Virus record (IMG/VR): IMGVR_UViG_3300020057_000748
Span: 1-30,186 of that record
DNA length: 30,186 nucleotides
Source: a virus
Direction: 5' to 3' (one strand)
The notes under the pieces were generated by a model. The model did not search any database. It was not told the DNA's origin and saw only the letters and a list, made by a program, of their open reading frames with translations. Of the stretch, positions 1 to 30,186 are shown piece by piece. Numbering within the stretch: the stretch's first letter is position 1; the number at the start of each line of letters is the position of its first letter. The position numbers were made by a program, and so were the translations under genes.

Positions 1-53
1 GCGCAGCAAGAGTGCAGCGCCAGCGTCATGAGACTTACCGTGTTATTTTTCAA

Positions 54-89
54 CCGGCTGTGCAGCGTGCGCGCACGCTGCACAGCCGG
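54..89. repeat. perfect 36-bp palindrome (18-bp arms, no spacer)
   Basis: The left arm CCGGCTGTGCAGCGTGCG (54-71) is followed directly by its exact reverse complement (72-89). No U-rich tract follows the stem on either strand, so it is not a normal intrinsic terminator. It lies outside the phage operon terminator. It could be a recombinase or regulator site, a strong RNA hairpin, or part of a dispersed repeat. The rest of positions 1-135 shows no gene I can support. Confidence 0.8.
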
Positions 90-135
90 GGGCGGAGTAT
101 ACGCCGAGTCGCCACTTTTGCAAGGGCGCCCTCCT

Positions 136-179
136 AAAAAAAGGTTGGCCCGCCCGGAGCTCACAACTCCGGACGGACC
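136..179 (-). terminator. rho-independent terminator of the late operon
   Basis: Read on the minus strand, a 13-bp GC-rich stem (arms 167-179 and 147-159, two G-U pairs, 7-nt loop at 160-166) is followed by AACC and then seven T (positions 142-136). It lies about 40 bases past the stop of the last minus-strand gene at 222. It is the clearest transcription end in the window. Confidence 0.8.
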
Positions 180-221
180 CCAAGTCGAACCTGTAACCCT
201 CGGTTCCGAGTGGCGGTGTAT

Positions 222-641
222 CTATTGTGGTCGATCGCCCGACAGGAGCGGCCTCGGCACATAGTCCCGGCACTTCGCACAGCAGGCCAGGCCGTCGAGT
301 GGTTTACCGAGGGTGCAACGCTCGTGCGTTTGACAAGCGAAGACTTTGATGCGCGTCTTACCGATGCACGTCTGGCATTCGATGACTTCTAACGGTTGTC
401 CGCCGAGGTAGAGACAGTCAGCTTTCGGCGCACGCTGCTGCTGTGGCTCCACCTCTGGTGTCTGTCGCACGCGCGGCGTGCCTTCCGCCGTGACGAGCGG
501 CCGGCAGGGGCGCGACGAACCAATCCAGTCTGGTTGGGCGAACAGCAACGTCCGCGGTCGGCCGCACGCTGAGCACGTCCACCATCCCGGCTCTGCGGTT
601 GGTGCGCCTTCGATCCACGGCGCCCAGAGGCATGTGGTCAT
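222..641 (-). CDS. cysteine-rich phage protein, putative metal-binding
   Basis: A 139-residue protein whose ATG lies one base after the upstream stop, so it is the last gene of the late operon. It has CxxC pairs at about residues 23-26 and 89-92 and further cysteines near 76, 103, 109, 120, 121 and 124, arranged like zinc-binding knuckles. The C-terminal half (residues 75-128) resembles a Cys-rich module I associate with planctomycete prophage tail-end proteins and with the N-termini of some phage glycosyltransferases. That resemblance is from memory and untested. No catalytic domain follows, because the protein ends soon after the module. The function is unknown; metal binding is inferred from the cysteine pattern. 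A terminator follows about 40 bases downstream. Confidence 0.75.
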   Translation of the reverse strand: MTTCLWAPWIEGAPTAEPGWWTCSACGRPRTLLFAQPDWIGSSRPCRPLVTAEGTPRVRQTPEVEPQQQRAPKADCLYLGGQPLEVIECQTCIGKTRIKVFACQTHERCTLGKPLDGLACCAKCRDYVPRPLLSGDRPQ

Positions 642-642
642 C

Positions 643-2667
643 TTAAACCTTCACCACGCTGAGGCCGCTGGCGCCGGTTGCGGACAAGCAACAACCGTTT
701 AAGTTTCCGCTCACCCAATCAAGATCAAACTCCGTGCAGGCGCCGCCCTGGTCGAACGCGGTCGTCGCCTCGAAGTAAGCTACGCCGCAACTGCCGCCTT
801 GCGGTATGTAGATGTATCCGAACGCCCGACAAGCGGCGGCGCTAATGGGCATGATTCGAATCTTGACCCACATACTGCCGGCCGCCGCGTCGTTGGTCAG
901 TGCGTCGCAGGGGTTGTCGATTCCGGTGTTAGCCGTGATTTCCCAGTAGGCGTCCGATTTCCAAGTCACGTTGCCCGTGAAGGTGCTGTTCAGGGCCGTT
1001 AGGAACGCCGAGTCGATTTCCGTGCAGTCGGTCAGGCAGTCGCCGCCGCCGTAGTAGGTGATCCCGTTAATGGTGATTTCAAATTCGCCGCCATAGCGCA
1101 GCGTCTCGTAGTCACAGCAGCCGGTCGGGTCGTCGGGACCGGGTTCCTCGGGTGGATCTGGGTCGGTTGGCGGATCGCTGACGAAGGTTTCACAGTCTGC
1201 GCTGTATTCGCAAGCGCCCGCGCCGTCGAGGACCCACAGCAAGCCGACGACCACCTTGGCCGGTGCTGCGACGACTTCAATACCGACGCGCCCGGCCCCG
1301 GTGAAGGTGTACGGCCCGCTGCAAAACCAGCCGACGTCGTCCAGGCTTGGATTACTGCCGCGATGGTTGGCTACCGCTACGGCGACTTTGCCAGCACGAT
1401 CAATCAACACAGCGCTGATCTGCGCCGCTCCGTTCTTGCCGGCCCCTCCGCTGCCGCTGGCACTGACGACGCGATTCAGGACGCCGGCTAGTTCCGCTTG
1501 GGTGGTTTCGCTGCCGGCGGCGCGTTGAATTACCCTGACGGAATCGCAATTTTCGCCGAGCGTGCCGCCCCAGTCGCCGTACTCCCACTCCACGCACCAG
1601 TAGTTGTCCTCGTCAACGTAGTCCCACAGCCAGCGCCACGTTAATCCATCCAGGTGCCAAATAAATTCGAGGTCGAGTCCGAGGTGGATTTGCGCGTAGT
1701 GCGCGTTCGGCGCGCGCAGCAAGTGTCGCAACAGCAGCCTGGCCGGTACGTCTTCGGTCGCGAGCCAGTTACCGGCGCCGCAAATAAACGTGGCGCCAGT
1801 CCACGGCAGCCGAGCACTCAAGTCAGGGTGCTCGAGATCCCAATCGCCGACGTCCTCCTCGTATTCCGCGCCGGGGTAGTCGCAGGCGGCGCGACTAAAG
1901 CAATCGTAGTGACCCACACTGCCCCGATCCCACGCGACGCCGTCGTCGAAGTTGGCGAAGTCTTGGTGAAATTGGAACAGGTGGCAGACGCACGGCGCAT
2001 AGATGTGCCGGAAGAGGATTAATTCGCAGGCTGCGGTGTTCGCGTCCGTGCCCGTGACTAGTCCGCCCTGCAATTCCGTCAGCCCGTTGACGCCGCCTGG
2101 ATCGAAGTAGTCGACGGAAACAGGAAACGCGGCGTCGTTCGCGTCGACAACCACGCCGCGCCAAATCCGCCCACCGGCCACCACTTTATGCGACAACCGA
2201 ATAAAATATTCTTCGGCCGGGTCAAAATCGTAGGCGTTCGTGCCGCAACTCGGAGCGGTCGCGAGGTCGTGCGTCCAGGTTAGGAGCCCATTGTCGTAAC
2301 GGCTCAAAGTCAACCTGCCCAGCGTGCCGCTGCCGAATGTCATGATCGCTGCGACGTAGCTATCGCCGTCGGCATCGAGGAAGAGGCAAACGCCTACACG
2401 GTCGCCGGCCGAAGCTTCGTAATACTTAGCCACAAATTCGCAGTCCAGATCGGCGCTCGGTGTTTCAAAGCGAATTCGCTGGTCGCTAGCAGCGTGGTCT
2501 GGCTCGAGGCCGAGGGTCCCGATCTCCCAGTCGCCGACCAACTCCGTCCAGCCGTCGACGTCCGTACTGCTTGGGCTTGAGCTATAACTTTCAAAGGCGA
2601 TCAGGCAGTCGCCGCCGCAGCTACAGCTGCCGGTTCCACAACCCGGGTTATGGCGTTTGAATACCAT
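643..2667 (-). CDS. large cysteine-rich virion protein with LamG-like domains (tail tip or fibre)
   Basis: A 674-residue protein. The N terminus carries a dense Cys-Gly cluster (GCGTGSCSCGGDC, about residues 9-21). One or two stretches then look like beta-sandwich LamG/concanavalin-type domains (WTELVGDWEIG and FDDGVAW-like motifs with many aromatic and acidic residues). A Pro/Asp/Glu-rich linker (about residues 495-515) leads to a C-terminal Cys-rich domain containing the pairs CC, CLTDC and CC. It lies downstream of the tape measure among tip-side genes, 3 bases after the previous stop. A role in host recognition or tail-tip architecture is inferred. The cysteines suggest disulfides or metal binding. 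No enzyme motif is visible and there is no signal peptide. Confidence 0.75.
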   Translation of the reverse strand: MVFKRHNPGCGTGSCSCGGDCLIAFESYSSSPSSTDVDGWTELVGDWEIGTLGLEPDHAASDQRIRFETPSADLDCEFVAKYYEASAGDRVGVCLFLDADGDSYVAAIMTFGSGTLGRLTLSRYDNGLLTWTHDLATAPSCGTNAYDFDPAEEYFIRLSHKVVAGGRIWRGVVVDANDAAFPVSVDYFDPGGVNGLTELQGGLVTGTDANTAACELILFRHIYAPCVCHLFQFHQDFANFDDGVAWDRGSVGHYDCFSRAACDYPGAEYEEDVGDWDLEHPDLSARLPWTGATFICGAGNWLATEDVPARLLLRHLLRAPNAHYAQIHLGLDLEFIWHLDGLTWRWLWDYVDEDNYWCVEWEYGDWGGTLGENCDSVRVIQRAAGSETTQAELAGVLNRVVSASGSGGAGKNGAAQISAVLIDRAGKVAVAVANHRGSNPSLDDVGWFCSGPYTFTGAGRVGIEVVAAPAKVVVGLLWVLDGAGACEYSADCETFVSDPPTDPDPPEEPGPDDPTGCCDYETLRYGGEFEITINGITYYGGGDCLTDCTEIDSAFLTALNSTFTGNVTWKSDAYWEITANTGIDNPCDALTNDAAAGSMWVKIRIMPISAAACRAFGYIYIPQGGSCGVAYFEATTAFDQGGACTEFDLDWVSGNLNGCCLSATGASGLSVVKV

Positions 2668-3468: not shown

Positions 3469-4280
3469 TAGCTCAACCCCAGCACGCTAAAGTCCGCCGT
3501 GAAAAACACCGGACCGACTTCGACGCCGATCGGCGTTGGAACCAGTTTGTCGCCGGCGGCGTTAAGCTGCTGTTCGGACGTGATCGACAGGTAATGCCAA
3601 CCCGGTTTGTTGATCCCGCTGATTGAGCCCACGCTGAGCGTCGCGTCCGGCGAAACGCTGAAGCGAAACGTGATCTCCACCTTCGCCTGGCCGCGTCCGG
3701 AGCCGGTCGCCTGGTCTAAGAGCACGGTGCCGGTGGCGTGTCCCCGGAAATGCGCATTGTTGACGCGCTTCACGCAATTGCCGACGGCGTTCTGATAGGC
3801 CGTGGTGAAGTCGGGCAGCGAAATGAAGCGCGTCAACGAAAAACTAAAACTCGGCACCGGGACTTCGACCCCTTCGACCGAGCCGTCTTCCCTTACGTTG
3901 ATGAAGCCGTTGTTGTCGGGCGCCGCGCGGCCCGACGGCGCGAACCGCGCGGGGGGCGCGAGAAACGATAACATCTTGGCCGTGGAGCCGCCGAACTCAA
4001 AGGCGAAACTCGGCACGTCTTCGTCGCCGCCGGAGATCGCGCTCGGCAGCACGCCGTATTGCACGATCGCCTTGTAGACCGCCTGATTGCTCTGAAAGCC
4101 GACATGCTCCAGGCTGATCGAGCGCGGGACCAGCTGCTTGTAGACCACGAGGTACGGCAGCATGTCGGCGCGGGCCGTGAGCTCGTCGACCGCGCCGAAG
4201 ATGAACCAGGTCCGCTTGGCCGAGGGATTCTCGCCGTCGTTACTCTCGGGGGAGAACTGGGCTTCGACGATAGTGGACAT
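3468..4280 (-). CDS. putative distal tail / hub-like protein
   Basis: A 270-residue protein whose ATG overlaps the tape-measure stop by one base (TAATG), indicating coupled translation. It is the first gene after the tape measure, the usual place for a distal tail or hub component. The sequence is mixed alpha/beta with an N-terminal segment rich in hydrophobics around residues 40-60 and a C-terminal beta-rich segment ending in a hydrophobic stretch. No known motif could be named with confidence. Assignment rests on position, not on recognised family residues. Confidence 0.7.
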   Translation of the reverse strand: MSTIVEAQFSPESNDGENPSAKRTWFIFGAVDELTARADMLPYLVVYKQLVPRSISLEHVGFQSNQAVYKAIVQYGVLPSAISGGDEDVPSFAFEFGGSTAKMLSFLAPPARFAPSGRAAPDNNGFINVREDGSVEGVEVPVPSFSFSLTRFISLPDFTTAYQNAVGNCVKRVNNAHFRGHATGTVLLDQATGSGRGQAKVEITFRFSVSPDATLSVGSISGINKPGWHYLSITSEQQLNAAGDKLVPTPIGVEVGPVFFTADFSVLGLS

Positions 4281-6148
4281 TAGAAGCCGAACGCCCCTTG
4301 CTGAAACTTGTTGACCAACTGTGCGGTGTTCTTGGCCGTCTCCTCGGCCGCCTTGGTGAGCGAGTCCTTGCCCCCCCCCAGGCCGCGGACCGCAAACGGA
4401 TTGAACGTGCCGGCGGAGCTAAACTTGCGCGCCGCGTCCTGGAGATCCGTGCCGGCCAGGCGATCCGAGGTTTGCTGCTCGGCCGCGGCGCGCTTGGTCG
4501 CGGCTTCCTCGCGCGACTTCGCCAGCTCGGCGATCGCCTCGGCGAGCTCGTCGTCCGACTGTTGGCGATTGCGATCGCGGCCTTTGAAAATTTCGTCGAT
4601 CGCCTGCGTGCGCACCGACTCGTTATTGGCCTCGTCGCGGTTCCGCTGCGCGATCTGCTCGCCCAGTTTCGTGGCGATGTTGTGGGTGACCACGTCCGTG
4701 ACGGCGTCGACGCCGGAGTTCGCGGCGTTGACCTGACGCCCACCTTCTTCCGCGCTGACTTGCCCGGTCAAAATCTGGAAGCCCACTCGCGCCTGGTTAA
4801 GGGCCTTGGCAAACTCTCCCAGCCCCTTGTAGAGGTAGATGAGCGCCGCGTCCATCGAGACATAGAGCGCGGCAAACGCGTTTATCCAGACACTGTTGAT
4901 CGCCGCTCCTAATGCCACGAATGCCACCGCGGCATCGCGTTGAAAATCGCGGACGTAGTCCAGCACGCCCTCGAGCGCCTCGGTGGCCGCGACCTGGACT
5001 GTCAGCCAGGCGATCTTCGCTGCCAATGCCAGGTCGCCGGCCAGGAGCGCATCGACAATTCCGGCAAAACCTTGTTGCACCCGCGCGGCGAACTCGCCGA
5101 CGGCCTGCGTCACGGCTTGGAATGCCTGCTGACCGATTTCGGTGTAGGTCACGAAGGCCACGCCGAGACCGACGACCGCGGCGACGGCCAGGCCGACGGG
5201 AGACAGGATGGCGCCGAGCACGACGCCGATCGCCGCTAAGCCGGCGCTCGTGAGCGACACGGCGCCACCGAGGCCCAGAAGGGCCACGCCCAGGGCGCTG
5301 ATCACGCCGCCAGCGACGGCGAGGCCCACCCCGAGCGCCAACACCGATTGGATCGCCTGGTGATTCCGGCCCACCCATTCCTGCACGGTCGCAGAGATCC
5401 GGCCAAACGACTGGGCCAACGGAGTCAGCACGGGCTCGAGCGCTGCGCCCACGGCGGTGATCGTGGCGCGGATGGCGCCATGCACGAGGTCAAAGGCATC
5501 GCCCACTGCTTCGGCGGAACGGATCGTTTCGCTGTCTAACACCTGACCAAGGCTGCGCGCCTGAGCGCGCAACGCGGCGAGTCCGGCGCTGCCGCCGGCG
5601 AGCAGTGGAATCAACTCCGTGCCGGCCCGGCCCAGTAAACGCACGGCCGCACTGGTGCGCCTGGCCGGATCGTCGATCGCGGCGATCGCGTCCGCCACGC
5701 GGGACAATTGTTGTTCGGGTTTCAGTCGCTTTAATTCGTCGACTGACAGTCCGATCGAAGTAAAGAGCGCGATCGCGTTTTTGCCGCCCGCCGCGCCGGC
5801 CGCCAGGTTGCGTTGCAAAAATTTCAGCCCGTTCGTCACACCCTCCAGCGAGCTCCCAGCCTGCGACGCAGCAAACGCCAACTCCTGAATGGCTTCAATC
5901 CACACGCCCGTCTTCTGGCTGGCTGCCAAAATCGTGCCGCCATACTCCCCCGCCACGCGGGCCGCGGCGAAGAGCGGTGACACGATGCCGATGCCGAGGG
6001 CGGTTAACCCCGCGCCGATCCGCGTGACGCCTTGCCCGAAGGAGGTCAGCCGCGTCTCGACCCGTGAGAGCACGCGTTGCACGTGGCTGTCTTCACCGAA
6101 AATTTCGATGAAGGCGCGGCCGGCTCGAATCGCCCCAGTGTTGGCCAT
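4280..6148 (-). CDS. tail tape measure protein
   Basis: A 622-residue protein that sets tail length and is ejected with the DNA in siphophages. The N terminus (residues 1-110) has the alternating helical and Gly/Ala-rich pattern of tape-measure proteins. A long hydrophobic segment spans about residues 268-333 and could form transmembrane helices during DNA entry. A charged, coiled-coil-like region rich in Glu, Lys, Arg and Ala covers about 490-570. It follows the gpG/gpGT-like chaperone pair by 10 bases and precedes tail-tip genes, the standard order. At 622 residues it is fairly short, implying a short flexible tail if the whole protein acts as a ruler; that is inference. Confidence 0.9.
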   Translation of the reverse strand: MANTGAIRAGRAFIEIFGEDSHVQRVLSRVETRLTSFGQGVTRIGAGLTALGIGIVSPLFAAARVAGEYGGTILAASQKTGVWIEAIQELAFAASQAGSSLEGVTNGLKFLQRNLAAGAAGGKNAIALFTSIGLSVDELKRLKPEQQLSRVADAIAAIDDPARRTSAAVRLLGRAGTELIPLLAGGSAGLAALRAQARSLGQVLDSETIRSAEAVGDAFDLVHGAIRATITAVGAALEPVLTPLAQSFGRISATVQEWVGRNHQAIQSVLALGVGLAVAGGVISALGVALLGLGGAVSLTSAGLAAIGVVLGAILSPVGLAVAAVVGLGVAFVTYTEIGQQAFQAVTQAVGEFAARVQQGFAGIVDALLAGDLALAAKIAWLTVQVAATEALEGVLDYVRDFQRDAAVAFVALGAAINSVWINAFAALYVSMDAALIYLYKGLGEFAKALNQARVGFQILTGQVSAEEGGRQVNAANSGVDAVTDVVTHNIATKLGEQIAQRNRDEANNESVRTQAIDEIFKGRDRNRQQSDDELAEAIAELAKSREEAATKRAAAEQQTSDRLAGTDLQDAARKFSSAGTFNPFAVRGLGGGKDSLTKAAEETAKNTAQLVNKFQQGAFGF

Positions 6149-7444: not shown

Positions 7445-7885
7445 CTAAGTCACGGTGTGCCAGAGCGGCGCGTTGGCCGAATAGGTCGGCTTCGCGGCGA
7501 CGTCGACGGACAACGCCTCGCGGAGGTTTTCGTTGCGCGTGAAGCGCGGAACCATGCAATCGGCCCGCAATCCTTGACTGCCAACCGTGCCGACCAGGCC
7601 GTCCAGCACCAGCAAGTCGATCACGGTGTCGTTCAAGAAGCTGGTCTTGAAGGCGGTGAAGTGGGCGTCGGCCGTATCCCAGACCATGCCGAATTCGATC
7701 GTCGCGCTCTTGAGCGCGGCGACGGTTTGCTCCCAGCCGTTGCCGCCGCGCGTGGTCACATCCGCTTCCGACTTTTCCAGGGTCAGTCGCAGATCCTTGA
7801 CGTTGTTGATCAGCGTCCAACTCGGCGAGCCGTACGAGCCCACGTTGCGATATAGCTTTGCATTCAGACCCAAGACGAACGCCAT
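7445..7885 (-). CDS. major tail tube protein
   Basis: A 146-residue protein with an ATG at 7885 preceded by GAAGGGG. The opening AFVLGLNAKLYRN, followed by a NNVKDLRL-type strand and a region ending DVTTRGGNGWEQ, matches the general layout of siphophage tail-tube proteins, which form stacked hexameric rings around the DNA channel. It is followed by a further structural protein, the tail chaperones and the tape measure, the expected order. The assignment rests on sequence style, length and position. Confidence 0.85.
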   Translation of the reverse strand: MAFVLGLNAKLYRNVGSYGSPSWTLINNVKDLRLTLEKSEADVTTRGGNGWEQTVAALKSATIEFGMVWDTADAHFTAFKTSFLNDTVIDLLVLDGLVGTVGSQGLRADCMVPRFTRNENLREALSVDVAAKPTYSANAPLWHTVT

Positions 7886-7924: not shown

Positions 7925-8440
7925 TTAGTTTTGCACGCTGTTCCGCCACAGCTCCGCGAGCTTCGGCGCCTCGGCCGCCAGCGCGGGGACCATGAACGGC
8001 CGTGCTTTGTAGGTGACCGTGCGGCTGTCGGCCGTGCTGGATCGGCGGGTCGCGTAGACCACGTCGCCAGTTTTTGTTTTTTTCAGCCGGCCGCTCTTCG
8101 TGCGCGCGGCGAAGCGGATCGTCCGGACCGTGGCCGTGCCGCCGTGCTCGATCCGTGCCAGTAGATTGGGATCCGGCTTGTTGAGGCGTGCCGGTCCGAC
8201 TACCACGCTGCGGCTCGCGTGGTCGTAGGCGAAGTACAGAAAATCCTTGACGTGCCCAGCGTGCGCGCTGGGCGGCTGGCCGGCGACGGAGATTTTCTTG
8301 CGGCGCGGCATCGAGCTTTTGGCGCGGCGACGAATGAACGCGCCCCCCTTCGAGAGCGCGCGGTGCGTCGCCTTGTCGAGGGCGCGGGCGACCAACTCGC
8401 GATCGAAAAAGCCTGCCTTGAATTGCCGGACCGATAACAC
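7925..8440 (-). CDS. HK97 gp10-like / phage virion morphogenesis protein
   Basis: A 171-residue, strongly basic protein with a GTG start at 8440 preceded by GGGGCAG. The N-terminal third is helical (residues 5-40, RELVARALDKATHRALSKG) and is followed by an arginine-lysine patch near 38-50. A VVVGPAR motif occurs near residue 83 and an ARPFMVPAL motif near residue 148. This pattern of a membership helix, a VGP segment and a C-terminal RPFM-type motif is characteristic of the HK97 gp10 family, which links head and tail. It sits directly before the tail tube. Its separation from the head connectors by 11 kb is unusual. Confidence 0.8.
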   Translation of the reverse strand: MLSVRQFKAGFFDRELVARALDKATHRALSKGGAFIRRRAKSSMPRRKKISVAGQPPSAHAGHVKDFLYFAYDHASRSVVVGPARLNKPDPNLLARIEHGGTATVRTIRFAARTKSGRLKKTKTGDVVYATRRSSTADSRTVTYKARPFMVPALAAEAPKLAELWRNSVQN

Positions 8441-8615
8441 CTGCTGCCCCTGCCCTCAAAAAAATTCTTGCCGCCCCGCGCGCCCCGCGTTAGGCTGAAG
8501 CACACCTAGTTCCCCGGAAGGCGTTCTGTTCCCAAATCAGGGACCGGCCGAGCGGATGTGGGGATACCTCCGCCCGGCGCGGCCACTTCATCCACAAGCT
8601 GTTAAGGAGCTTGCG
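8441..8615. promoter_or_regulatory. divergent intergenic region between gp10-like gene and PEP-CTERM gene
   Basis: These 175 bases separate the divergent minus-strand gene ending its 5' side at 8440 and the plus-strand gene starting at 8616. A plus-strand promoter must lie in or near here for the downstream gene. A weak candidate is TTGCCG (8468-8473) and TAGGCT (8491-8496) with a 17-base spacer, but the -10 match is poor. The ribosome binding site AAGGAG at 8604-8609 is clear. Confidence 0.4.
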
Positions 8616-9365
8616 ATGTTCATTCGTTTTTTGCTGGCGGCTGCCGTACTGTCAGCTCTCCTCTGCGCTCCGGTTTCTGCGGAGACCGTGACGTACGACT
8701 TCACCACGATGGAGGAAGTCCCCGATTGGCTCAACCTCCGATACGGGAAGCTGGATCTGCTGAATCACGCACTCCTTAACTTCGGACCGCAGGACCCGGA
8801 AAACTTCTACGGCGTTCTTCAGTTCAGCTTCGATTTCGATCGTCCCTTTCACATCGACTCGATGTCATTCATTGGCGGTGGAGAAGTCATCTACACGCAG
8901 TTTTTTGGTGATTGCGATTTTCAGCCTGGCACTGTCGAATCACATGGAACAGAGCCCGTGGCTTTCACGTACGACTGTTTCAGCTACAACGGCGGTGGTG
9001 GTTTTTACCTTTGGGGCGGCGAAGACGACCTGTGGGGTGACCAGTTTTTTGCCGGCATTACCAGCATGACGCTAACTCACTTCGATCCCGTTCCTCTCGT
9101 TTCTGGCGACACCGATTACGACGCCGACGTCGATGTCTCTGACCTCAACAACACCCGCAACGCGTTCGGCGGCGATCCCGTCCGCGCGTTTGGCGACGTG
9201 GATCGCGACGGGGCGATTGGCGTCTCCGACTTGAATGATGTTCGCAACAACTTTGGCTCCTTCGCTTCCAATCCGGTTCCCGAACCGGCGTCGCTGACGC
9301 TGTTGTTGGGTCTCGCCACCGTGGCTACAGGTCTCCGTATTTGGCGAACAAGGCGGCTTCGATAG
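8616..9365 (+). CDS. PEP-CTERM sorting protein with dockerin-like repeats
   Basis: A 249-residue exported protein. ATG 8616 is preceded by AAGGAG and starts the hydrophobic signal MFIRFLLAAAVLSALLCAPV, with likely cleavage after Ala22. A beta-rich domain with many aromatic and Gly residues follows (about 23-160). Two dockerin-like calcium loops come next: GDTDYDADVDVSDLNNTRNA near 164 and a DVDRDGAIGVSDLNDVRNN-type repeat near 190. The C terminus is VPEP, a hydrophobic helix and an Arg-rich tail, the PEP-CTERM motif recognised by exosortase in bacteria that make exopolysaccharide. It is the only plus-strand gene and overlaps the opposing gene by 41 bases. It is a cell-type, not virion-type, protein and is probably a lysogenic-conversion or moron gene; that role is inference. 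Confidence 0.88.
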   Translation: MFIRFLLAAAVLSALLCAPVSAETVTYDFTTMEEVPDWLNLRYGKLDLLNHALLNFGPQDPENFYGVLQFSFDFDRPFHIDSMSFIGGGEVIYTQFFGDCDFQPGTVESHGTEPVAFTYDCFSYNGGGGFYLWGGEDDLWGDQFFAGITSMTLTHFDPVPLVSGDTDYDADVDVSDLNNTRNAFGGDPVRAFGDVDRDGAIGVSDLNDVRNNFGSFASNPVPEPASLTLLLGLATVATGLRIWRTRRLR

Positions 9366-12300
9366 TCGCCCAACTCGCGCTCACGTCGCCGTCGTAAATC
9401 AGCACTTCGGCGACGTCTCCCGTAAAGAACAACTGTTCCGTGTCGGCGTGCGCGGACGCTCCCAGCAACAGTGAGTCGCGCCACAACAGGCCGTCGACGT
9501 CACCGAACCACCGGCCATCGGCTCCTTCGATCACCGAAGACGCGGATGATGCCATCAGGCTCGTTGAACCGCCGCCGCTGAATACGCCATTGCCATCGCT
9601 AATGGCAAACGTCGTGTTTGTGCCGTTGCTGGCGATCCGAATAATCTGCCAAGTATTTGCCGGCCATGCGTTGGCTTGCGAAGAAACCACCGACTCCGTA
9701 TCCGACTGTCCATTCCGCAGTCGAACGCGAATGCTGTCATCCGACGCCTGACGCTCGACGCGAACATAGGTCGTGTTAGTTTGTTCGTCGGTCGACGCCA
9801 GCAGGACTTGCAGGGCGGCCGCGTCGCTGGTGCATTTGGCGACGAGGTAGATCGTGCCGCTTTGGGCAAAAGAAGTCGCGCTATTCAGCCGCAGCAGGTC
9901 GTTCGATCCGTCGAATCGCGTGATGGCAAAACCATTCAGCGTGTTGGCGTCGTCACCAAGGCCAAACGCAGCATTCATTTTGTAGAGCGGCCGCTTGTCG
10001 TTGGTCCCTTGGCGAAACCGCATCCGCGTTAAGCTGTCGCACCAGGCGGCAATTCGAGTCTGTTCGAGTATGCTGCTATCCTGGATGATCCAGCTATCGG
10101 CGTGAATGTTGTCCGTGCCTTGCACGTAGAGGATGTTTTCATCGCCACGATTGCCGTTGGACGTGTCGAGGTTGCGATCGCTCACCAGCCGCAGCACGCA
10201 ATTGGTCAGCGGCGGCGCAGCGGTGGCGCTAGCGAGCGCTGAGTAGACGTAGCCCGAGTTATTGCTTTCGGTGATTCCCGAATAAGTTCCTCCCGAATCG
10301 ACTTTTAGCAATCGACCGCCCAGTGGCTTCACTGAGTTGTCGCGGAGCGTACTCCGTTGCAAACTGGCCACTTGGAACAAGGCGCTCGGGTTGCCGCCAT
10401 TCATCTCAAAGCCGCGATTGCCCGCAATTTCGCAGTCCGAAACGCCAGCCAAGTAGAAGCCGACTTTTGAGCCGATGATGGTGTTGTCTTTGATGACCGA
10501 ACCAGTTACATCGGCCTGGCCGTTAGTAGAGCTGCCGCCGGCGTTGCCGATGTAGACAGCGTAATCGTTGCGCGGATGTGTCCACTGACCGCCGACTCCC
10601 TCATTGCCGCCGGTGTGCGTCGTGGTGGTCTTGACCCAGATTCCGGCTTGCGTGTCACTGGCCCCCGGCGTGGCATCTGGATCGCCCATCAGGCCCGTGA
10701 TGAAGTGCGTTCCAATGTACGCTGGCGAACCGTCGACCGTGTGCCCGGCTACGGTGATGTAGCCTTTGTATCCCAGTCGATGCGCGGTGTAGTGATTTTC
10801 CGCGATTTTGAAAGCTACGAATCCGTCGCTGGTTTGATCGCTGGCACTGATGCCGCCCGACTCGCTGTCGTCGATTGTGTTGCCGGTGAACTCCAGGCGA
10901 TGCACGTTGTAGAGCTTAACGGGGACGCGGCCGGCAGCGGTCGACACAGATTCTCGTTCGCCATAAACCGTGTACGCCGGAAGATTGGCCGTCGTCAGCG
11001 TACTCGCCAGTTCGCCGCAGTTGGAGATTTTGTTGTCTTTGATGCTCAGGTCACGCGGCCACAGTCCGTTGTTGTCGTCCGTCCAAATGGCGTTGGTCAC
11101 CATGCCGCGAATCGTGTTGCCGTGAATGATTTGGCCGGCGCCGCCATTGCCCCATACGTCGTCGAGCGTCCCCTCGGCTAACGTGCCTTCCATGCCGATG
11201 CCGTTGTCGGCGTTCTCTAAAATGTTATTGATCGCCGAGTGACCGAAACCTCGGAACTTGGCGCAGACACCAGCGCTCAAGCCGTTGCGAATCACACTGC
11301 CTTCAAGCTGGATGTTTCGGCCCGTGACGTAGACGCCATTGTCGAAGAACCATTCGCAGCGAATGGCGCGAAGCAACCCGAACGCGCTGATCTGGTCTTC
11401 CTCGGTCAACTTGACCGGATTGCCAGCGCCGCCGACAAAGGCCCCAGCTGCGTAATACGCCTCGAAGTCGTCGACGAGGAAGTCGTAACCGCCCTCAAGC
11501 TGGATCGCGTAGTTCGGCAAGATGACTTGCTTGTGATCGTTGAAGGATGGCCGCAATCCGGCTGCCCACCCCTCGGTGAACGGTCCAGTGTGCTTGCAAC
11601 CAACCACTTTCCACTTGCTGGACGTGTCGTTGTACAGCAGGCCGTCGACCGCGGAGCTTTCGGTGCCGTTCAGTTCGTGGCCGTCGCCGGAGCTAAACCA
11701 AAACACGCGAGAGCCTTCGAGGTCGCCCATGCGGCGATTGCCGGATGAACTATCAACGCCAGGCGAATCGTCAATGCCGTGTCGCACTTCTCCATAGGCA
11801 CTCGTTTGCGGCGTCGTGACCGTGGGGATGTCCGTGGCTGCCGTGTCCGTAAACGTGAAGGTAGTTCCGTTCAGCACGTCGACCGTTCGTAACCCGTCAA
11901 TCGCTGATCGCGTCCCAGCGCCGCCGCTGCCGTCCAGGCTAATCAGCGGACCGGGCTTTGTTGATCCGGCGACAATTGTGTCGATGCCAAAGTGATCGAG
12001 GTAGTACATGCCGCCGTCGACCAGCCCGACTGTCGAGTCGACGGTAACGACTGGCGGACTGGCCGGATTTCCCGTGGTGCAGGATTGAATTGCCGGCCTG
12101 CCAAGTCCCGCAATGGCGCCAGTCGTGCCAGCGATCGTCACGTTGACGCCGGTGATCTTGAATTTTCCGCGTGGGTTTTTGGAGTCGAGCGCCGAAACGG
12201 TCCATGTGCCATTAACCGAAGGCGTCGAGTTTGAGCCTGCAATCGTTACCGAATCGCCAACTTCCAGGCCGTGGTCGTAGCAGGTGTCGGTGACAAAGTC

Positions 12301-12807
12301 CGTGGTAACGGTGATCGTTTCATCAGTCGCGATACCTGTGATCGTCCGCGCAACGCCTTCCAGCGAAATGTGCCGGTCGTAGCAGGTACTCGTGGTTTCG
12401 ACGCCAGTGAACTTACCGCCGTGCCACTTGATGTTCGTGCAATTTTGCCAAGCAAACCACCACGGCGCGATGCGCACCGTTGCTTGGATCGTCGCCCCAT
12501 GCGCATTGATTGTGATGTTCGACGCGCCCGTCAACGTGACCTTGTCGGTCATCGTCCACGTGCCCGGCGGGATCAAGACATTCGAACCGCCCTGCGCTTT
12601 GGCGATGTCAAAGGCGGTTTGAAACGCCAAGGTGTCGCTGACGCCATCGTTAGGAATCGCCCCTTGCGCGGCCACGTTCACCAACGGCAAGCCGCTACGC
12701 GGACCAGCGAAATGGGCGTACACGCGGCCGCAGCCGGCCACGAGCTGCAGCCACAGCAGCAAGCCAGCGCCGAGTCGGAATCGGTTGAATCGTGGTCGTC
12801 GCATCAT
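9325..12807 (-). CDS. exported beta-helix (pectate-lyase superfamily) protein with lipobox and LamG-like C terminus
   Basis: An 1160-residue protein. I choose the ATG at 12807, which overlaps the upstream stop as ATGA; a longer reading to 12846 is not needed. Residues 1-26 are a signal with basic start, a GAGLLLWLQL core and the lipobox LVAGC, so it may be a lipoprotein anchored at Cys26. A pectate-lyase-3-type opening follows, with GAIPNDGVSDTLAFQTAFD and a VLIPPGTW strand. Long stretches of short repeated beta-strands with asparagine ladders (for example INAHGATI, IKDNKISNCG) mark a right-handed beta-helix. The last about 230 residues look like a LamG/concanavalin domain ending in a VLIYDGDVSASW type motif. 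It probably binds or cleaves polysaccharide; no active site was identified. Confidence 0.8.
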   Translation of the reverse strand: MMRRPRFNRFRLGAGLLLWLQLVAGCGRVYAHFAGPRSGLPLVNVAAQGAIPNDGVSDTLAFQTAFDIAKAQGGSNVLIPPGTWTMTDKVTLTGASNITINAHGATIQATVRIAPWWFAWQNCTNIKWHGGKFTGVETTSTCYDRHISLEGVARTITGIATDETITVTTDFVTDTCYDHGLEVGDSVTIAGSNSTPSVNGTWTVSALDSKNPRGKFKITGVNVTIAGTTGAIAGLGRPAIQSCTTGNPASPPVVTVDSTVGLVDGGMYYLDHFGIDTIVAGSTKPGPLISLDGSGGAGTRSAIDGLRTVDVLNGTTFTFTDTAATDIPTVTTPQTSAYGEVRHGIDDSPGVDSSSGNRRMGDLEGSRVFWFSSGDGHELNGTESSAVDGLLYNDTSSKWKVVGCKHTGPFTEGWAAGLRPSFNDHKQVILPNYAIQLEGGYDFLVDDFEAYYAAGAFVGGAGNPVKLTEEDQISAFGLLRAIRCEWFFDNGVYVTGRNIQLEGSVIRNGLSAGVCAKFRGFGHSAINNILENADNGIGMEGTLAEGTLDDVWGNGGAGQIIHGNTIRGMVTNAIWTDDNNGLWPRDLSIKDNKISNCGELASTLTTANLPAYTVYGERESVSTAAGRVPVKLYNVHRLEFTGNTIDDSESGGISASDQTSDGFVAFKIAENHYTAHRLGYKGYITVAGHTVDGSPAYIGTHFITGLMGDPDATPGASDTQAGIWVKTTTTHTGGNEGVGGQWTHPRNDYAVYIGNAGGSSTNGQADVTGSVIKDNTIIGSKVGFYLAGVSDCEIAGNRGFEMNGGNPSALFQVASLQRSTLRDNSVKPLGGRLLKVDSGGTYSGITESNNSGYVYSALASATAAPPLTNCVLRLVSDRNLDTSNGNRGDENILYVQGTDNIHADSWIIQDSSILEQTRIAAWCDSLTRMRFRQGTNDKRPLYKMNAAFGLGDDANTLNGFAITRFDGSNDLLRLNSATSFAQSGTIYLVAKCTSDAAALQVLLASTDEQTNTTYVRVERQASDDSIRVRLRNGQSDTESVVSSQANAWPANTWQIIRIASNGTNTTFAISDGNGVFSGGGSTSLMASSASSVIEGADGRWFGDVDGLLWRDSLLLGASAHADTEQLFFTGDVAEVLIYDGDVSASWATIEAALFAKYGDL

Positions 12808-13849: not shown

Positions 13850-16800
13850 TTAAGCCGCCAACGCCGAGGCCACACGTTTCGGTTCGATCGCCCACAGCGC
13901 CAAGCGCTGGAGCGGCAGGATTTCCGGCAGGTCCAGCGACGCCACGTAGTTCTGAATCAGCCAGCCTGTGCCGGCGTCGACGTACACCATGGTCACCGTT
14001 TCCAGCGGCCCCAGCGTGAAGTCCGCGCCGGTCGGCGAGTTGATCTGATTCTTGCGGAGCGAATTCGCGCCCGCGTTCTGATGATCGAAGACCAGGTTGT
14101 CGGCCGAGTCGCGATTTTGCACGCGAATCGTCCGGCCCGGCCAGCCGCCCTCCAGGCCGGTAATCAGATTGGCGGTGTCGTCGGTCGTAAAGCGATGCAC
14201 GTCGACCGGCATCAGCGCCACGTTGTGCGTGTCGGTCGTAATCTCCGCGTAAGTCCAGACGCCGCCGCCGCCGCGCAGGTCGACGTTTTTAGCGCTCTTC
14301 ACCCACAGCGACGGGGCGGTGCTATTGAAGACCGGCGTCGTGGCCAGTTGATTGGCGTTCGCCAAATCCTCCACGCGGCACAGCACGACGATGTTGCTGC
14401 CGGAGAACTCCACGTCGCCGGTCGTGCTGCCGGTCGTGGCATTGGCCTGCGTGTCGTAGAGTTTGTCGTTGCTCCCGCGATACCAAAACGTCTCGCCTTC
14501 GACCGTGATCGCACCGCCGCCGTCGATCGTGGCCGTGGGGAACGTCTCCTGAGCGTACAACCGCACCGGCGCCACGGTCGCCGCATTGACCACGGTGCGC
14601 GTCAAGTGGTGCGAGGCGATGTAGACAGTCGAAGTGTTCGAGGGGTTTTGATTCCAGGTGCGGCGGACCGTGGCCACCTTCGTCGAGCCGACGTAGTCCG
14701 TGATGCTGTTCCGCTCGACGCGACCATTGGCATGCACCGCGACGATGTCCAGGTTGTTGTAGGCGTCGTCAAAGGTCAGCGCCGTCGTGGGCAACGTCAC
14801 GCTGGTCACGCCGCCGGCCTGGGCAGTCCCGATCAGATTGCTTTCGCTGAGCGGCGTCAGCGTGTCGGCGGTCACGTCCAGGCTCAGCAGTTCCTCGTTG
14901 CTACCGAACTTGCAGTCCTCTAACGTGCCATGTCCATCGGGACAGGTGATGTACATGCCCGACTGAGCGTCGGTGTTCGAGAGCGGCACGTCGAAGTTCT
15001 TAAAGGCGAATTTAGAGTTCGCGGTGAACACGCCTTGCACCATCGACAGGCGTTGCGAGGCGCCGACCGACGGGCGCAGGAACGCACCGTCGATCCCGCT
15101 GTCGATAAACAGGTTGGTCCCGGTCCCCAGATCGACGATCCGGTACGTGCCGGAGGTCGGCAGGTTGAACTGCTCGTAGCGGAGATTCTTGAGCCAGCTA
15201 TTCACCCAGACCTTCGATACCGAGGCCGCGCCGACGGTCTTGACCAGGCCGACGCTCGTCAGGTCGGAGCGCGTGCCGCTCACGCCCTCAATGGTCGTAT
15301 CGAACAGGCTCCCCAAGCAGAGCCCAATCGCAGCGCCGGTCGTCGCTGCCGTCGCGATCGAGTCGTAAGGCTCGAGGTCCGGATCATAGTAGACGCCGCT
15401 GGTATTGTTGAGCACTTTGACATACAGCGTGTCCCAGCCCTGGCCGTCCGGATCGCCCCAGGCGGCCGTGCCCGGCGCCAGCGATCCGAAGCCGGTCGTC
15501 CCCACGACCGTCACGCGCTCATCCATGATGATGTGCGTAGGTTGGCTGGCGAGCGCCTTGCCCCCCGTCGCTTTGAGCGTCAGACCGTATTCGTCGTTAA
15601 CCCCGCGTGGCGCCCAGGCGTAATGGTCATTGGTCACCGACGTGGTATCGGACACGTAGTTATGCACAAACTGAATGTCTTTGATCGAGCCGTTGGTCAC
15701 GCCGCTCAACAGCACGGCATGCGCGCCGGTGATCTTGTTGACCTGCAAGCCCTCGACGCCGTCCGTCGGCGCGGCATTGAGACTGCCGATCAGATTGTCG
15801 ATTTGAATGTTCTTGCAATCCTCGGTGATGAACACGGAGGAGCGAATGTTCGTGAGCTGCGCGTTTTCCGTTTCGGCTAACTCCACCAGCACTCCATTGA
15901 CGTTGGAGATCTGCACGTTCTGCACGGGGTTCGACGACGTCACATCACCGACGGCGAGATTGCCGCCATACTGCCCGAACAAATCGCTGATGATGATGTG
16001 CCGCGTGGGATTCTGGTCTTGCGAGCCGCGAATGCTGATGCCGTTTTTGTCCGGCGTATCCACGCCGTACAGGCGATCGCCGCGCGAGACGTAGTTGAAT
16101 TTGCTGACGTTCCAGTAGTGCATGTGCGTGGAGCGCCGACCGTAGTTGCCCCACCAGTTCCCGAGCGTGTAGAAGTCGCCTTGCGCCAGCAGCGTTTGCG
16201 CACCATCTCCGCCGCGCACGGCGATATGGCAATCCTTGACCAGCATCTTGGCCTGCGACCAATAGCTGTAGTCGTCGTTCGTACTGCCGCTCTCCCACCA
16301 ATTGGGCACGAAGAAGGTCGCGTTGGTGAACCGCGTATCGCGCGGCTGCTGGTACGACCCATTGGCCGGCGTGGAGACCGTGAAGCAGACCAGGCCGGAA
16401 AAGCAGGTGCCGACCGTATCATGCTCGGACAGTCCGCCGGCGAAGTCCTCCCAGATCACCCGCCCGTTATCCCAATCGAACTTATGGGCGGAGACGGCGA
16501 ACAGCGCTGGGGCGGAAGGCATGCCCAAGGGCTCGGACGTGCCGTCCTGGATGGTGGTCGCATCCAGACGCACTTTCGACTCCAAGGCCCGCCAGCGAAT
16601 CGTCGTCGAGGGGTGCAATTTGAGGGAGATATTGGTACTCGGCGTGCTGTCGCCTAAGACGTACAGCGCCGGCCGGGTCGGATTGGTCAAGCCGACGTTC
16701 GTGTACCAGGTCACGCCGTCCGGGTCGGCCGTGCCCAGCTTCGGCGAATAGATCGGCATGTTGCCAGGCGGGAGCTCGATCGTCGCGCCCTGGCCCCAGG

Positions 16801-19126
16801 CCCGCGCCGCGGCCACGCATTTACGCAGCGGCATCGTGTCGTCGTGCGTCGCCAGGAGCGAGTTGGTCCCAAGGTCGGCGAACGCCGCGTCTTGCAGCAC
16901 CGCCGTCGTGCTCGTCGGCACCGACTGAATCATCGCCCGCAGGGCCTTGCGGACGGCGCCGCTGGTGTCTTCGTCCGGGACCCACGGCAGGGCCCGCTTG
17001 AGGACGTTGTTGCCGTCGGCGACCAGCGTGTTGGCGGCCGTGCTCGACCAGCTCGGCGTCGAGCTGCCGCTGCGCCCTTGGAACGGGCCGGTCTTCGTGC
17101 AGTCGTAGACTTTCCAGAGGCGGTTGCTGCTGGCGTCCAAGACCGCCGAGCCGATCGGCATCACCGTGTTGGTGCGATGCTCGTAGCTCGGATTCTCGAC
17201 ATCCGGCAGTCCCTTGTAGGCCGCCAATCGCACCTTCTGGCCATAGTCTTGGTACTCGACGAAGGCCTCGTTCAAGTAACCGGAGGCCGTGTCGCTGAAC
17301 GCCTGGTTGATGACGATTAAATTCGGACCGCGCGAGAGCACGCGTTTTTTGGTGTCGTATTCTTCGTCGCTCGTGGAAGTGGAGTTGACCTCGATGATGT
17401 CGTTGTCCGCGTAGTACGTGCCGATGCCCGTCGCGGCGAGTTGACTATTGCCGCCGCTGTCGCTCACGCTGGTGAACGAATAGACCTCGTCGTCGGTGTT
17501 GTTCGGGTTGTGCGCGCGCAGTCCGTCGGCGTCAAGCACGGTGATTACGTCGCGGCCGCTGGTGGTGAAGCCATAGACCGCCATCGACCGCGCGCCCTGC
17601 GGCACGTCGAACCGCCAGCGAATCGCCGTGGTCATGTCGCCGGCGGTGCGATAGTTCCAGGTATTGATCGTCAACACGTCGGCGCTGGCCGGCCCCCAAC
17701 CCCCTTCGCCATCGCCCGGCCGCACCGTGGCAAACCACGGCGTATAGCCCAACATCGTCTGCGTGCCGGAACCGCCGGTCAGCGTGATAATGTTGGCGTT
17801 ATCGATCGCGTTCTGCGCAGTCGGATGCAGCGAGACCGTCTTCGCCAGACCAGGAGCCGTGCCGGAGACCCGGCGCGCAAAATAGGTTGTGACGTTGTCA
17901 AGCGTGATCCCGCCCGTGGGCAGCGCGCCGCCGGAATTGCTCACCCGGATCGGGTCGCCGTTCGCCAGCGGCACTTCGGTTGAGAGCGTGCAGATGTTAC
18001 TCGAGTGCGTCCAAGTCGGATCAGTCCCGACTTTCGTACCGTAGCTGGCCGTCACGCCGTCGACGGTCGTTTGGCTCGCGCCGAGCGTGCATTCCGGTCC
18101 GGAACGCAGCAGCAGAATCCAGTGGTTGACCGCGTAGTCATTCGCTGAGGCGGTGGGCGTACCGGCGTTGTTATTAAACGTGACGGTTGTTTTCAGCCGC
18201 GCCGTATGCGTGCCGCTGCCGGTGTTGGTGAAGTTCAAATCGCCGGTGCCGGCGAGCGCTGCCGCGCGGGTCAAATGCGCCGTGAACGTCGTCGACGATT
18301 GCACGTCGACGAACACGCGCGTACTGGCCGTGAGCGTCCCACTGGACAGGGCCGGCAATGTGGTCGTCGTCGTGAACGAAATCCCGTCGCCGTCCACCAA
18401 GCCATGAGCGCCCGCTGTCGTGACCACGTCCGTAGAGGTATCGACGGTCGCCGTGGAGGAAGTGGTCGCCGTCTGCACAAAGGCGTCGGTGTCCAGCATC
18501 GACGCGCCGTGATTTACCGGGCTGAAGACGGACGACTTCGTGATCGCCGTCGCACCGTCGGGCGCCAGCAGGCCGCCAACTTGCGGAGCTTGCCAGCCGG
18601 GAATTGCGTCGCCGTCAGCAGCCAGCACGTGGCCAATGGTGATGCCCGTCGCATCCACGCCGCCGCCGGTCTGCGGCCCCGGTACAAACCCGCCTGCGCC
18701 GCCGTTGGCCGCGGGATCCCAAATCGGCACGTCGCCGCTGTCGGCCGCGCCGGCGTCCCCTAGGTCCTGCACGTCCAGCGTGTCGAATGTGAAGTCGCCG
18801 TCCCCTTCGGCCAGCAAGGCTTGCCGCGCCGTGGCCGTGGCGGCGTTGGTGATATCGGTGAGCTCGCCGAGCTCGCTGACTCCCATGCCGCCGCCGGCGA
18901 CGTCGATCGGGATCCAGAAGCCGTTGGGATATACGCCCTCATACGCCAGTGCCTGGCCGTCGGTCGGCGCATTCGCGCCCGTGACCTTCACGTCGCCAGT
19001 GAGTTGGCGCAAGCGTGTGACTGTGCGTCCGCCGGCGGGCGGCTGTGCCGCGGCCGGCGCGCACAGCATGGCGCCGATCAACAACCCGACCAGCAAACCG
19101 TGTAATTTTTCGCTAACGCCTACCAT
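13850..19126 (-). CDS. very large beta-helix tailspike / fibre with Sec signal peptide
   Basis: A 1758-residue protein. ATG 19126 overlaps the upstream stop by 7 bases. Residues 1-28 form a signal peptide (KLHGLLVGLLIGAMLCAPAAA, likely cleaved after APAAA), which is unusual for a virion protein. The next segment, with DGQALAYEGVYPNGFW and LGELTDITNAATATARQ, is typical of phage tail fibre collars. A YDCTKTGPF...TPSW segment near residue 675 resembles a small carbohydrate-binding module. Near 765-790 GATIELPPG with preceding helix matches a pectate-lyase-3 opening, followed by a long beta-helix of short repeats. The last 90 residues (FTTDDTANLITGLEGGWPGR, then FTLGPLETVTMVYVD) match a common spike or fibre C-terminal fold. 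A receptor-binding depolymerase is likely. Confidence 0.85.
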   Translation of the reverse strand: MVGVSEKLHGLLVGLLIGAMLCAPAAAQPPAGGRTVTRLRQLTGDVKVTGANAPTDGQALAYEGVYPNGFWIPIDVAGGGMGVSELGELTDITNAATATARQALLAEGDGDFTFDTLDVQDLGDAGAADSGDVPIWDPAANGGAGGFVPGPQTGGGVDATGITIGHVLAADGDAIPGWQAPQVGGLLAPDGATAITKSSVFSPVNHGASMLDTDAFVQTATTSSTATVDTSTDVVTTAGAHGLVDGDGISFTTTTTLPALSSGTLTASTRVFVDVQSSTTFTAHLTRAAALAGTGDLNFTNTGSGTHTARLKTTVTFNNNAGTPTASANDYAVNHWILLLRSGPECTLGASQTTVDGVTASYGTKVGTDPTWTHSSNICTLSTEVPLANGDPIRVSNSGGALPTGGITLDNVTTYFARRVSGTAPGLAKTVSLHPTAQNAIDNANIITLTGGSGTQTMLGYTPWFATVRPGDGEGGWGPASADVLTINTWNYRTAGDMTTAIRWRFDVPQGARSMAVYGFTTSGRDVITVLDADGLRAHNPNNTDDEVYSFTSVSDSGGNSQLAATGIGTYYADNDIIEVNSTSTSDEEYDTKKRVLSRGPNLIVINQAFSDTASGYLNEAFVEYQDYGQKVRLAAYKGLPDVENPSYEHRTNTVMPIGSAVLDASSNRLWKVYDCTKTGPFQGRSGSSTPSWSSTAANTLVADGNNVLKRALPWVPDEDTSGAVRKALRAMIQSVPTSTTAVLQDAAFADLGTNSLLATHDDTMPLRKCVAAARAWGQGATIELPPGNMPIYSPKLGTADPDGVTWYTNVGLTNPTRPALYVLGDSTPSTNISLKLHPSTTIRWRALESKVRLDATTIQDGTSEPLGMPSAPALFAVSAHKFDWDNGRVIWEDFAGGLSEHDTVGTCFSGLVCFTVSTPANGSYQQPRDTRFTNATFFVPNWWESGSTNDDYSYWSQAKMLVKDCHIAVRGGDGAQTLLAQGDFYTLGNWWGNYGRRSTHMHYWNVSKFNYVSRGDRLYGVDTPDKNGISIRGSQDQNPTRHIIISDLFGQYGGNLAVGDVTSSNPVQNVQISNVNGVLVELAETENAQLTNIRSSVFITEDCKNIQIDNLIGSLNAAPTDGVEGLQVNKITGAHAVLLSGVTNGSIKDIQFVHNYVSDTTSVTNDHYAWAPRGVNDEYGLTLKATGGKALASQPTHIIMDERVTVVGTTGFGSLAPGTAAWGDPDGQGWDTLYVKVLNNTSGVYYDPDLEPYDSIATAATTGAAIGLCLGSLFDTTIEGVSGTRSDLTSVGLVKTVGAASVSKVWVNSWLKNLRYEQFNLPTSGTYRIVDLGTGTNLFIDSGIDGAFLRPSVGASQRLSMVQGVFTANSKFAFKNFDVPLSNTDAQSGMYITCPDGHGTLEDCKFGSNEELLSLDVTADTLTPLSESNLIGTAQAGGVTSVTLPTTALTFDDAYNNLDIVAVHANGRVERNSITDYVGSTKVATVRRTWNQNPSNTSTVYIASHHLTRTVVNAATVAPVRLYAQETFPTATIDGGGAITVEGETFWYRGSNDKLYDTQANATTGSTTGDVEFSGSNIVVLCRVEDLANANQLATTPVFNSTAPSLWVKSAKNVDLRGGGGVWTYAEITTDTHNVALMPVDVHRFTTDDTANLITGLEGGWPGRTIRVQNRDSADNLVFDHQNAGANSLRKNQINSPTGADFTLGPLETVTMVYVDAGTGWLIQNYVASLDLPEILPLQRLALWAIEPKRVASALAA

Positions 19127-29443: not shown

Positions 29444-29600
29444 CAGCCCCCCTCCATCTTCCCGCCCGGACAACGCCGAGCTAAATCGGTCACCGCGTCT
29501 TTCATCCGCTCCAAACAGGAGAGATGATCTGCCCTGTCCTCCGATAGCGCTTGCGTGAAGTCCTTCCGCTGCGCTGTGAGCGTCGCATCGTACCGGCGAA
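29443..29600 (-). pseudogene. alternative-frame tail of the ImmA-like gene (possible frameshift)
   Basis: Beyond residue 125 the metallopeptidase frame becomes arginine-rich and unfamiliar. A different frame that is open from about 29600 to a TGA at 29443-29445 reads as ordinary protein (ATLTAQRKDFTQALSEDRAD, then SCLERMKDAVTDLARRC) and ends overlapping the ATG of the next gene. It has no start codon of its own near its opening. This fits a frameshift near 29580-29600 that split one gene. A separate gene with an unusual start is the alternative. Confidence 0.4.
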
Positions 29601-29966
29601 GCAGTCGGCCTGCCGCTCCAGGGGATCGCCGGAGATGAAACCGCTCCTGGACTCATGAAGCCCGTCACCGTGCGGGAACAGTTTCTCTGGGTGGCCGGGC
29701 AGGAAATAGTGGCCAAGTTCATGCGCTACCGTGAACCGCATGTAGCCTTCGTTCGCAATGTGCTGGGCGTAGCGAATTCCAAAGACATTGCCGACGCGCA
29801 TCAGGAATCCGGACACACCTGGTTTGCTCGATTGCTTGGCTTCAACATGGATGTCGTGCTTCTTTGCGACTTCAAAGGGGCAGATCGGCAATGCGGAAAA
29901 TCCGCAATCCTTGACGACCTGTAGGGCTGCGTGTTCAGCCTCCGCACGAGCGAGTTTGTCGGACAT
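29502..29966 (-). CDS. ImmA/IrrE-type metallopeptidase (C terminus doubtful)
   Basis: A 154-residue frame. Residues 1-60 are helical then beta, and HELGH (82-86) followed by ERQAD (117-121) gives the zinc-binding HExxH plus distal acidic residue of ImmA/IrrE peptidases. Such enzymes cleave phage repressors or act in stress responses, and they often sit next to a Cro/CI repressor, as here (the repressor stop lies 3 bases upstream). After about residue 125 the usual FAxxLLMP-type tail is replaced by an arginine-rich sequence that looks out of frame, so the protein may be inactivated or the sequence may contain an error. The catalytic residues are intact. Confidence 0.75.
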   Translation of the reverse strand: MSDKLARAEAEHAALQVVKDCGFSALPICPFEVAKKHDIHVEAKQSSKPGVSGFLMRVGNVFGIRYAQHIANEGYMRFTVAHELGHYFLPGHPEKLFPHGDGLHESRSGFISGDPLERQADCFAGTMRRSQRSGRTSRKRYRRTGQIISPVWSG

Positions 29967-29969
29967 GGC

Positions 29970-30186
29970 CTATTTGTCCTCCTGACGGCGACGGTTCTTC
30001 TCCGCCAGCATGGCCGCGAACTTGGCAAGGTCGTCCTGGTCTTCGGCCGTCATCTGCTTGAAGTTGCGGAAGAGCTTCTGAGCAACGGGACCGGCGGTGG
30101 TGGGCACGGTTTCTCGACCCAGCAGGAAGTCAATGGTGACGGCAAGGGCGTCGGCGAGTTTTTTCAAGTTATCAAACGAAGGTGCC
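29970..30186 (-). CDS. Cro/CI-family repressor, C-terminal part (5' end outside window)
   Basis: The visible 72 residues end the gene. They open with APSFDNLKKLADALAVTIDF and LLGR, the classic end of the HTH_3 domain (helix 4-5 and the D-x-L-L-G-R signature). A basic, charged tail follows with no peptidase domain. The recognition helix and start are beyond the right edge. Its position just upstream of an ImmA-like gene suggests an ImmA/ImmR-like immunity switch, though the pair could be unrelated. The frame remains open to the window edge. Confidence 0.85.
   Translation of the reverse strand, partial: APSFDNLKKLADALAVTIDFLLGRETVPTTAGPVAQKLFRNFKQMTAEDQDDLAKFAAMLAEKNRRRQEDK

Follow-up and report, generated by a model that had tools for sequence, protein, structure and literature searches.

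A host-type PEP-CTERM/dockerin-like gene in the late operon of a planctomycete phage: a putative moron and candidate lysogenic-conversion gene

Proteins of the PEP-CTERM/exosortase (EpsH) class (TIGR02595/PF07589) are encoded on host chromosomes and combine a signal peptide with a PEP motif, a hydrophobic helix and a basic tail; fewer than 10% of them match any Pfam family, and a model exists for the processing of the exported proteins by exosortase (PMC1569441). In phages of the P22 type, a gene counts as a moron if comparison with related phages shows it to be an insertion in an operon, and such genes are usually independently expressed (PMC2629481). The protein described here resembles the PEP-CTERM class in each of the four elements, as well as in a middle region that lacks homologues among other proteins, but differs in that its gene lies in a phage operon.

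We analysed the whole of IMG/VR record IMGVR_UViG_3300020057_000748, a stretch of 30,186 bases referred to below as the window. Its late operon, on the minus strand, encodes a DNA methyltransferase, large terminase, portal, protease-capsid fusion, head decoration and head-tail joining proteins and, in its tail part, a fibre-like protein of 1758 aa (the fibre label is a reading of the sequence, the protein being without a family match), spike, tail connector, tail tube, tape measure and more tail proteins. The phage context was confirmed by TerL, portal, protease-MCP, head-tail joining, tape measure and tail spike. Relatives of the capsid protein occur in hundreds of viral contigs and in 65 of the 392 sampled Planctomycetota genomes, several of them within megabase-size planctomycete contigs; the phage group is thus widespread in planctomycetes, integrates, and is probably temperate. 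An integrase was not seen in the window contig. The phage features needed for the argument are the following:

4280-6148, minus strand: tape measure protein
7445-7885, minus strand: tail tube protein
7925-8440, minus strand: gene of the tail-connector type, with conserved counterparts across the phage group; neighbour of the PEP-CTERM gene
9325-12807, minus strand: tail-spike-like beta-helix protein with a LamG-like C-terminus; neighbour of the PEP-CTERM gene
21883-24054, minus strand: fused head protease/major capsid protein, used as comparison marker
29502-30185, minus strand: HTH protein (cut by the contig end), then an ImmA/IrrE-type protease; candidate lysogeny-control pair

The frame of the ImmA/IrrE-type protease appears altered near its C-terminus. 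Two of the late proteins start with signal sequences, which is unusual for virion adhesins: the fibre-like protein (13850-19126, minus strand; MVGVSEKLHGLLVGLLIGAMLCAPAAAQ) and the spike-like protein (1160 aa; MMRRPRFNRFRLGAGLLLWLQLVAGC, with the lipobox LVAGC).

A sequence-only reading had placed a PEP-CTERM gene with calcium loops alone on the plus strand of this operon, between tail genes, and our results confirm that description. The reading frame is intact, a codon-usage gene call made it the single plus-strand gene inside the late operon, with all others on the minus strand, and it is flanked by the fibre/spike genes on one side and the tail-connector/tail-tube genes on the other. The 249-aa protein passes the PEP-CTERM model TIGR02595 with 16.3 bits (cut-off 16), and its match to PF07589 (E=0.00087, 19.7 bits) falls one bit short of the cut-off of 20.7. 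The gene is laid out as follows:

8604-8609, plus strand: Shine-Dalgarno sequence AAGGAG, 6 nt ahead of the ATG at 8616
8616-9365, plus strand: PEP-CTERM/dockerin-like cargo gene, 249 aa
8616-8681, plus strand: Sec signal peptide of 22 aa, with cleavage between VSA and ETV judged by eye
8682-9104, plus strand: orphan N-terminal domain, with strands in a low-confidence model and no homologue in sampled Planctomycetota genomes
9105-9257, plus strand: two dockerin-type calcium loops (GDTDYDADVDVSDLNNTRNAFG and GDVDRDGAIGVSDLNDVRNNFG), identified by sequence comparison
9273-9353, plus strand: PEP-CTERM sorting signal, VPEPAS and a hydrophobic stretch; the Arg-rich tail extends to 9362
9325-9365, both strands: convergent overlap of 41 bp, in which the Arg-rich tail and stop lie antisense to the end of the LamG-like domain of the spike

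An alternative in-frame ATG at 8556 would give a protein of 269 aa; the start at 8616 is preferred because of the Shine-Dalgarno sequence and because it opens directly on the signal peptide MFIRFLLAAAVLSALLCAPVSA, followed by ETV at the putative mature end. Beyond the N-terminal domain come the two loops, both canonical (D-x-D-x-D...D) and each followed by DLN-x-x-R-N-x-FG, and then the sorting signal NPVPEPASLTLLLGLATVATGLRIWRTRRLR. Pfam Dockerin_1 (PF00404) does not match the protein even at E<=10, yet the two loop signatures and the homology to proteins that do match justify the term dockerin-like, and only that. Homologues of the N-terminal domain were found neither in 297 genomes of the order nor in 392 of the phylum, and two weak matches were discarded as chance frames. 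A fold search was ruled out by the quality of the structure model (mean pLDDT 51.5). An orphan N-terminal domain is normal for the class, given how few of its members match Pfam. Since the last 41 bases run antisense to the end of the spike gene, the basic tail and stop codon are built over phage sequence.

The same reading had taken the product for a host-type exported protein and no recognisable part of the virion, and this too held: the best match among host proteins (E=2.6e-18) is above chance, and no PHROG matches the protein. Its C-terminal third is a module with 122 matches in a single Pirellulales metagenome-assembled genome (G045), where the calcium loops and PEP tail share 44-50% identity with the host proteins; some of those aligning to the loop segment clear the Dockerin_1 cut-off. 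This genome encodes an exosortase (E=1.3e-51), and exosortases were present in three of the four genomes carrying the nearest phages. G045 provides not only the best PEP-CTERM matches but also, among sampled genomes, the closest sister phage (MCP 49-52%, tail tube 80% identical). Taken together with the exosortase, this makes a Pirellulales host likely.

Comparison with the sister phage (contig C5 of G045; loci L138 and L232) suggests how the gene came to its place. Gene order there is as in the window, with a 19436-type gene, a 19120-type gene, a LamG-SGNH-like gene and the tail-connector gene, but the PEP-CTERM gene is absent; the LamG-SGNH-like gene overlaps the tail-connector gene by ATGA. 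The equivalent stretch of the window is occupied by the long fibre gene, then a gene for 341 aa, the spike gene with its LamG-like end and, last, the PEP-CTERM gene. At 20 related loci, no more than about 110 bp separates the two flanking core genes. The differing content between these core genes indicates that the region is variable in the phage group, and that the PEP-CTERM gene was inserted at its edge. At the spike position of the sister phage, the LamG-like plus SGNH-hydrolase-like protein (L138:7485-8825, minus strand; domains assigned by eye, no Pfam match) is possibly a surface-glycan esterase.

We did not find the gene in about 90 related viral records and contigs, nor a homologue in phage, plasmid and IMG/VR viral-contig collections, so that within the collections searched it has so far been seen in one phage only. 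Two apparent matches were set aside as chance: a PEP-CTERM match in L045 (G024), which is antisense to portal/MCP, and a Kineobactrum match (L096) in the wrong frame over unrelated genes. On sequence grounds, the gene is best described as a moron, a gene of host type that was inserted among the operon genes of a phage, and we hold its host-type origin and insertion to be highly probable.

Cargo is usual in the late operon of this group, as judged from the relatives. Two loci carry an opposite-strand GNAT acetyltransferase of the same kind just after the capsid gene (L068:11995-12414 and L089:3642-4061, both minus strand), which is another moron of the group, and in a third a radical SAM gene lies on the opposite strand, between the terminase and portal genes (L077:5377-6264, minus strand). 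Trypsin-like proteases with a signal peptide occur in the tail operon of three further relatives (L013:14198-15229, plus strand; L154:12260-13756 and L162:11958-13406, both minus strand), on the same strand as the operon, and two of them are fused to a thioredoxin-like domain. A gene for an ECF-type sigma factor (L030:15496-16638, minus strand) lies on the opposite strand, adjoining the tape measure gene.

The late transcript cannot express the PEP-CTERM gene, which lies on the opposite strand, and a promoter of its own would be needed. A consensus scan detected no promoter or terminator near the gene, but this should be interpreted with some caution since planctomycete promoters may not fit that consensus. 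One putative weak promoter falls under the scan threshold:

8469-8497, plus strand: TTGCCG-17-TAGGCT, agreeing with the sigma-70 consensus at 7 of 12 positions

A promoter motif that the gene would share with the PEP-CTERM genes of G045 was not clearly seen. We rejected a riboswitch or structured leader, as there was no Rfam match and folding was no better than that of shuffles.

According to our hypothesis, a temperate planctomycete phage captured a chromosomal gene of Pirellulales type that encodes an exported dockerin-like/PEP-CTERM protein; the gene was placed on the opposite strand between the spike and tail-connector genes, and became an exosortase-sorted moron acting on the surface of the lysogen. 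In the lysogen, with the late operon silent, transcription would start from the gene's own leader; the protein would pass through Sec, be cut at the PEP motif by the host exosortase, and be released to the outer membrane or the matrix outside the cell. There its orphan domain could modify the lysogen surface, e.g. in adhesion, matrix formation or exclusion of other phages. We give this hypothesis as a whole an even chance. Lysogenic conversion had been proposed from the sequence, and the proposal is supported in part, by the insertion relative to the sister phage, by relatives in planctomycete chromosomes, and by likely hosts that have exosortases and many such proteins. The expectation of homologs at the same locus in other planctomycete prophages failed, with none in some 40 loci, and as far as the collections reach homologues exist as ordinary chromosomal genes only and are absent in related phages. 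This counts against conversion being conserved across the group, and is compatible with a recently acquired conversion gene.

A young insertion, however, might equally be a neutral passenger: host DNA that recently entered an insertion-tolerant spot by illegitimate recombination, is of no use to the phage, and has an intact reading frame only through youth. We consider this a serious rival, though the less probable of the two. The gene is a singleton in the collections, very many copies of its homologues sit among the ordinary genes of the host and make an easy donor, consensus expression signals are lacking nearby, and its composition (GC 56%, GC3 65%) is unlike that of the phage genes and also unlike that of the sampled host genes; a recent functionless capture would, moreover, look the same as a conversion gene. 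Against this, the frame is complete, with a strong Shine-Dalgarno sequence and both sorting signals, the insertion lies between genes and broke neither neighbour, and the C-terminal Arg tail runs to completion across the phage junction. Useless DNA also tends to be lost from phage genomes. Set against the neutral passenger and the lesser rivals together, a conversion role remains about evenly balanced on the present sequence evidence.

An extension of the conversion hypothesis is that the gene belongs to an exported cassette. As the fibre-like and spike-like proteins also start with signal sequences, the spike with a lipobox, these adhesin-like phage proteins (13850-19126 and 9325-12807) may be displayed on the lysogen while the phage makes use of the host exosortase route, although we regard this as unlikely.

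The remaining rivals concern the contig itself or the virion. That the contig is a decayed prophage, a remnant with host genes intruding, has a parallel in locus L063, where a true dockerin/PEP-CTERM gene (1-1395, plus strand; E=2e-8), unrelated to that of the window, lies immediately upstream of a small gene plus the portal, in the place of a TerL that is present in 56 of 61 comparable loci; L063 may itself be a prophage in decay, or else a misjoin. The late operon of the window is instead complete in order, with frames open from TerL to beyond the tape measure, and decay is distinctly improbable. A chimera assembled from phage and host reads could be suspected in a metagenomic contig, and queries with spike, tape measure, tail tube and fibre yielded no second contig spanning the PEP-CTERM site, two contigs 99% identical to the window (L002 and L003) covering other parts only. 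Nevertheless, it would take two misjoins that lead back into one and the same phage operon with its gene order kept, and the junction lies between genes. A direct repeat flanking the gene (14 of 16 positions; 8389-8404 and 9367-9382) is not significant, since 10 of 300 control pairs of window segments match at least as well, which speaks against a chimera just as it disqualifies the repeat as an insertion footprint; we consider a chimera very improbable. Finally, a late-made protein that decorates the particle or aids release through the surface layer would explain the position amid tail genes, but is scarcely credible given the wrong strand for the late transcript, the absence of a PHROG match, and Sec and PEP-CTERM signals that point to the envelope.

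Returning to the preferred reading of a captured moron, planctomycetes make PEP-CTERM/dockerin-like proteins in large numbers. Should the gene be functional in lysogens, phages would both use exosortase-sorted surface proteins and act as their vehicles, and their carriage by phages could, if true, help explain the number and variability of these proteins. If it does nothing, it exemplifies the ready entry of high-copy host genes into phage genomes. Judged by titles and abstracts, the papers found on PEP-CTERM proteins with prophages or planctomycete phages include none that presents such a protein as phage cargo, and this class of cargo appears new for phages, resting on one contig.

Among known systems, the dockerin-like PEP-CTERM proteins of Pirellulales (G045 loci L098, L100, L101, L104 and L106) share with the window protein the motif GDxxxDxxVxxxDLNxxRNxFG, present twice, followed by VPEPAS and an Arg tail, but the window protein differs in its orphan N-terminal domain and in loops degenerate enough to miss Dockerin_1. 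The Ltp-type superinfection-exclusion lipoproteins that prophages place at the surface (PMC3952083) offer an analogy only, insofar that the window protein, too, would be exported, prophage-made and at the cell surface, while anchoring, sequence and host group differ. The 'ant moron' that P22/epsilon34-type phages carry beside their tailspike gene (PMC2629481) is likewise a late-operon insert that adjoins a spike gene and is absent at the relatives' junction; here moron status follows from the insertion, independent expression being a prediction, and the cargo differs in being a predicted exosortase-sorted surface protein.
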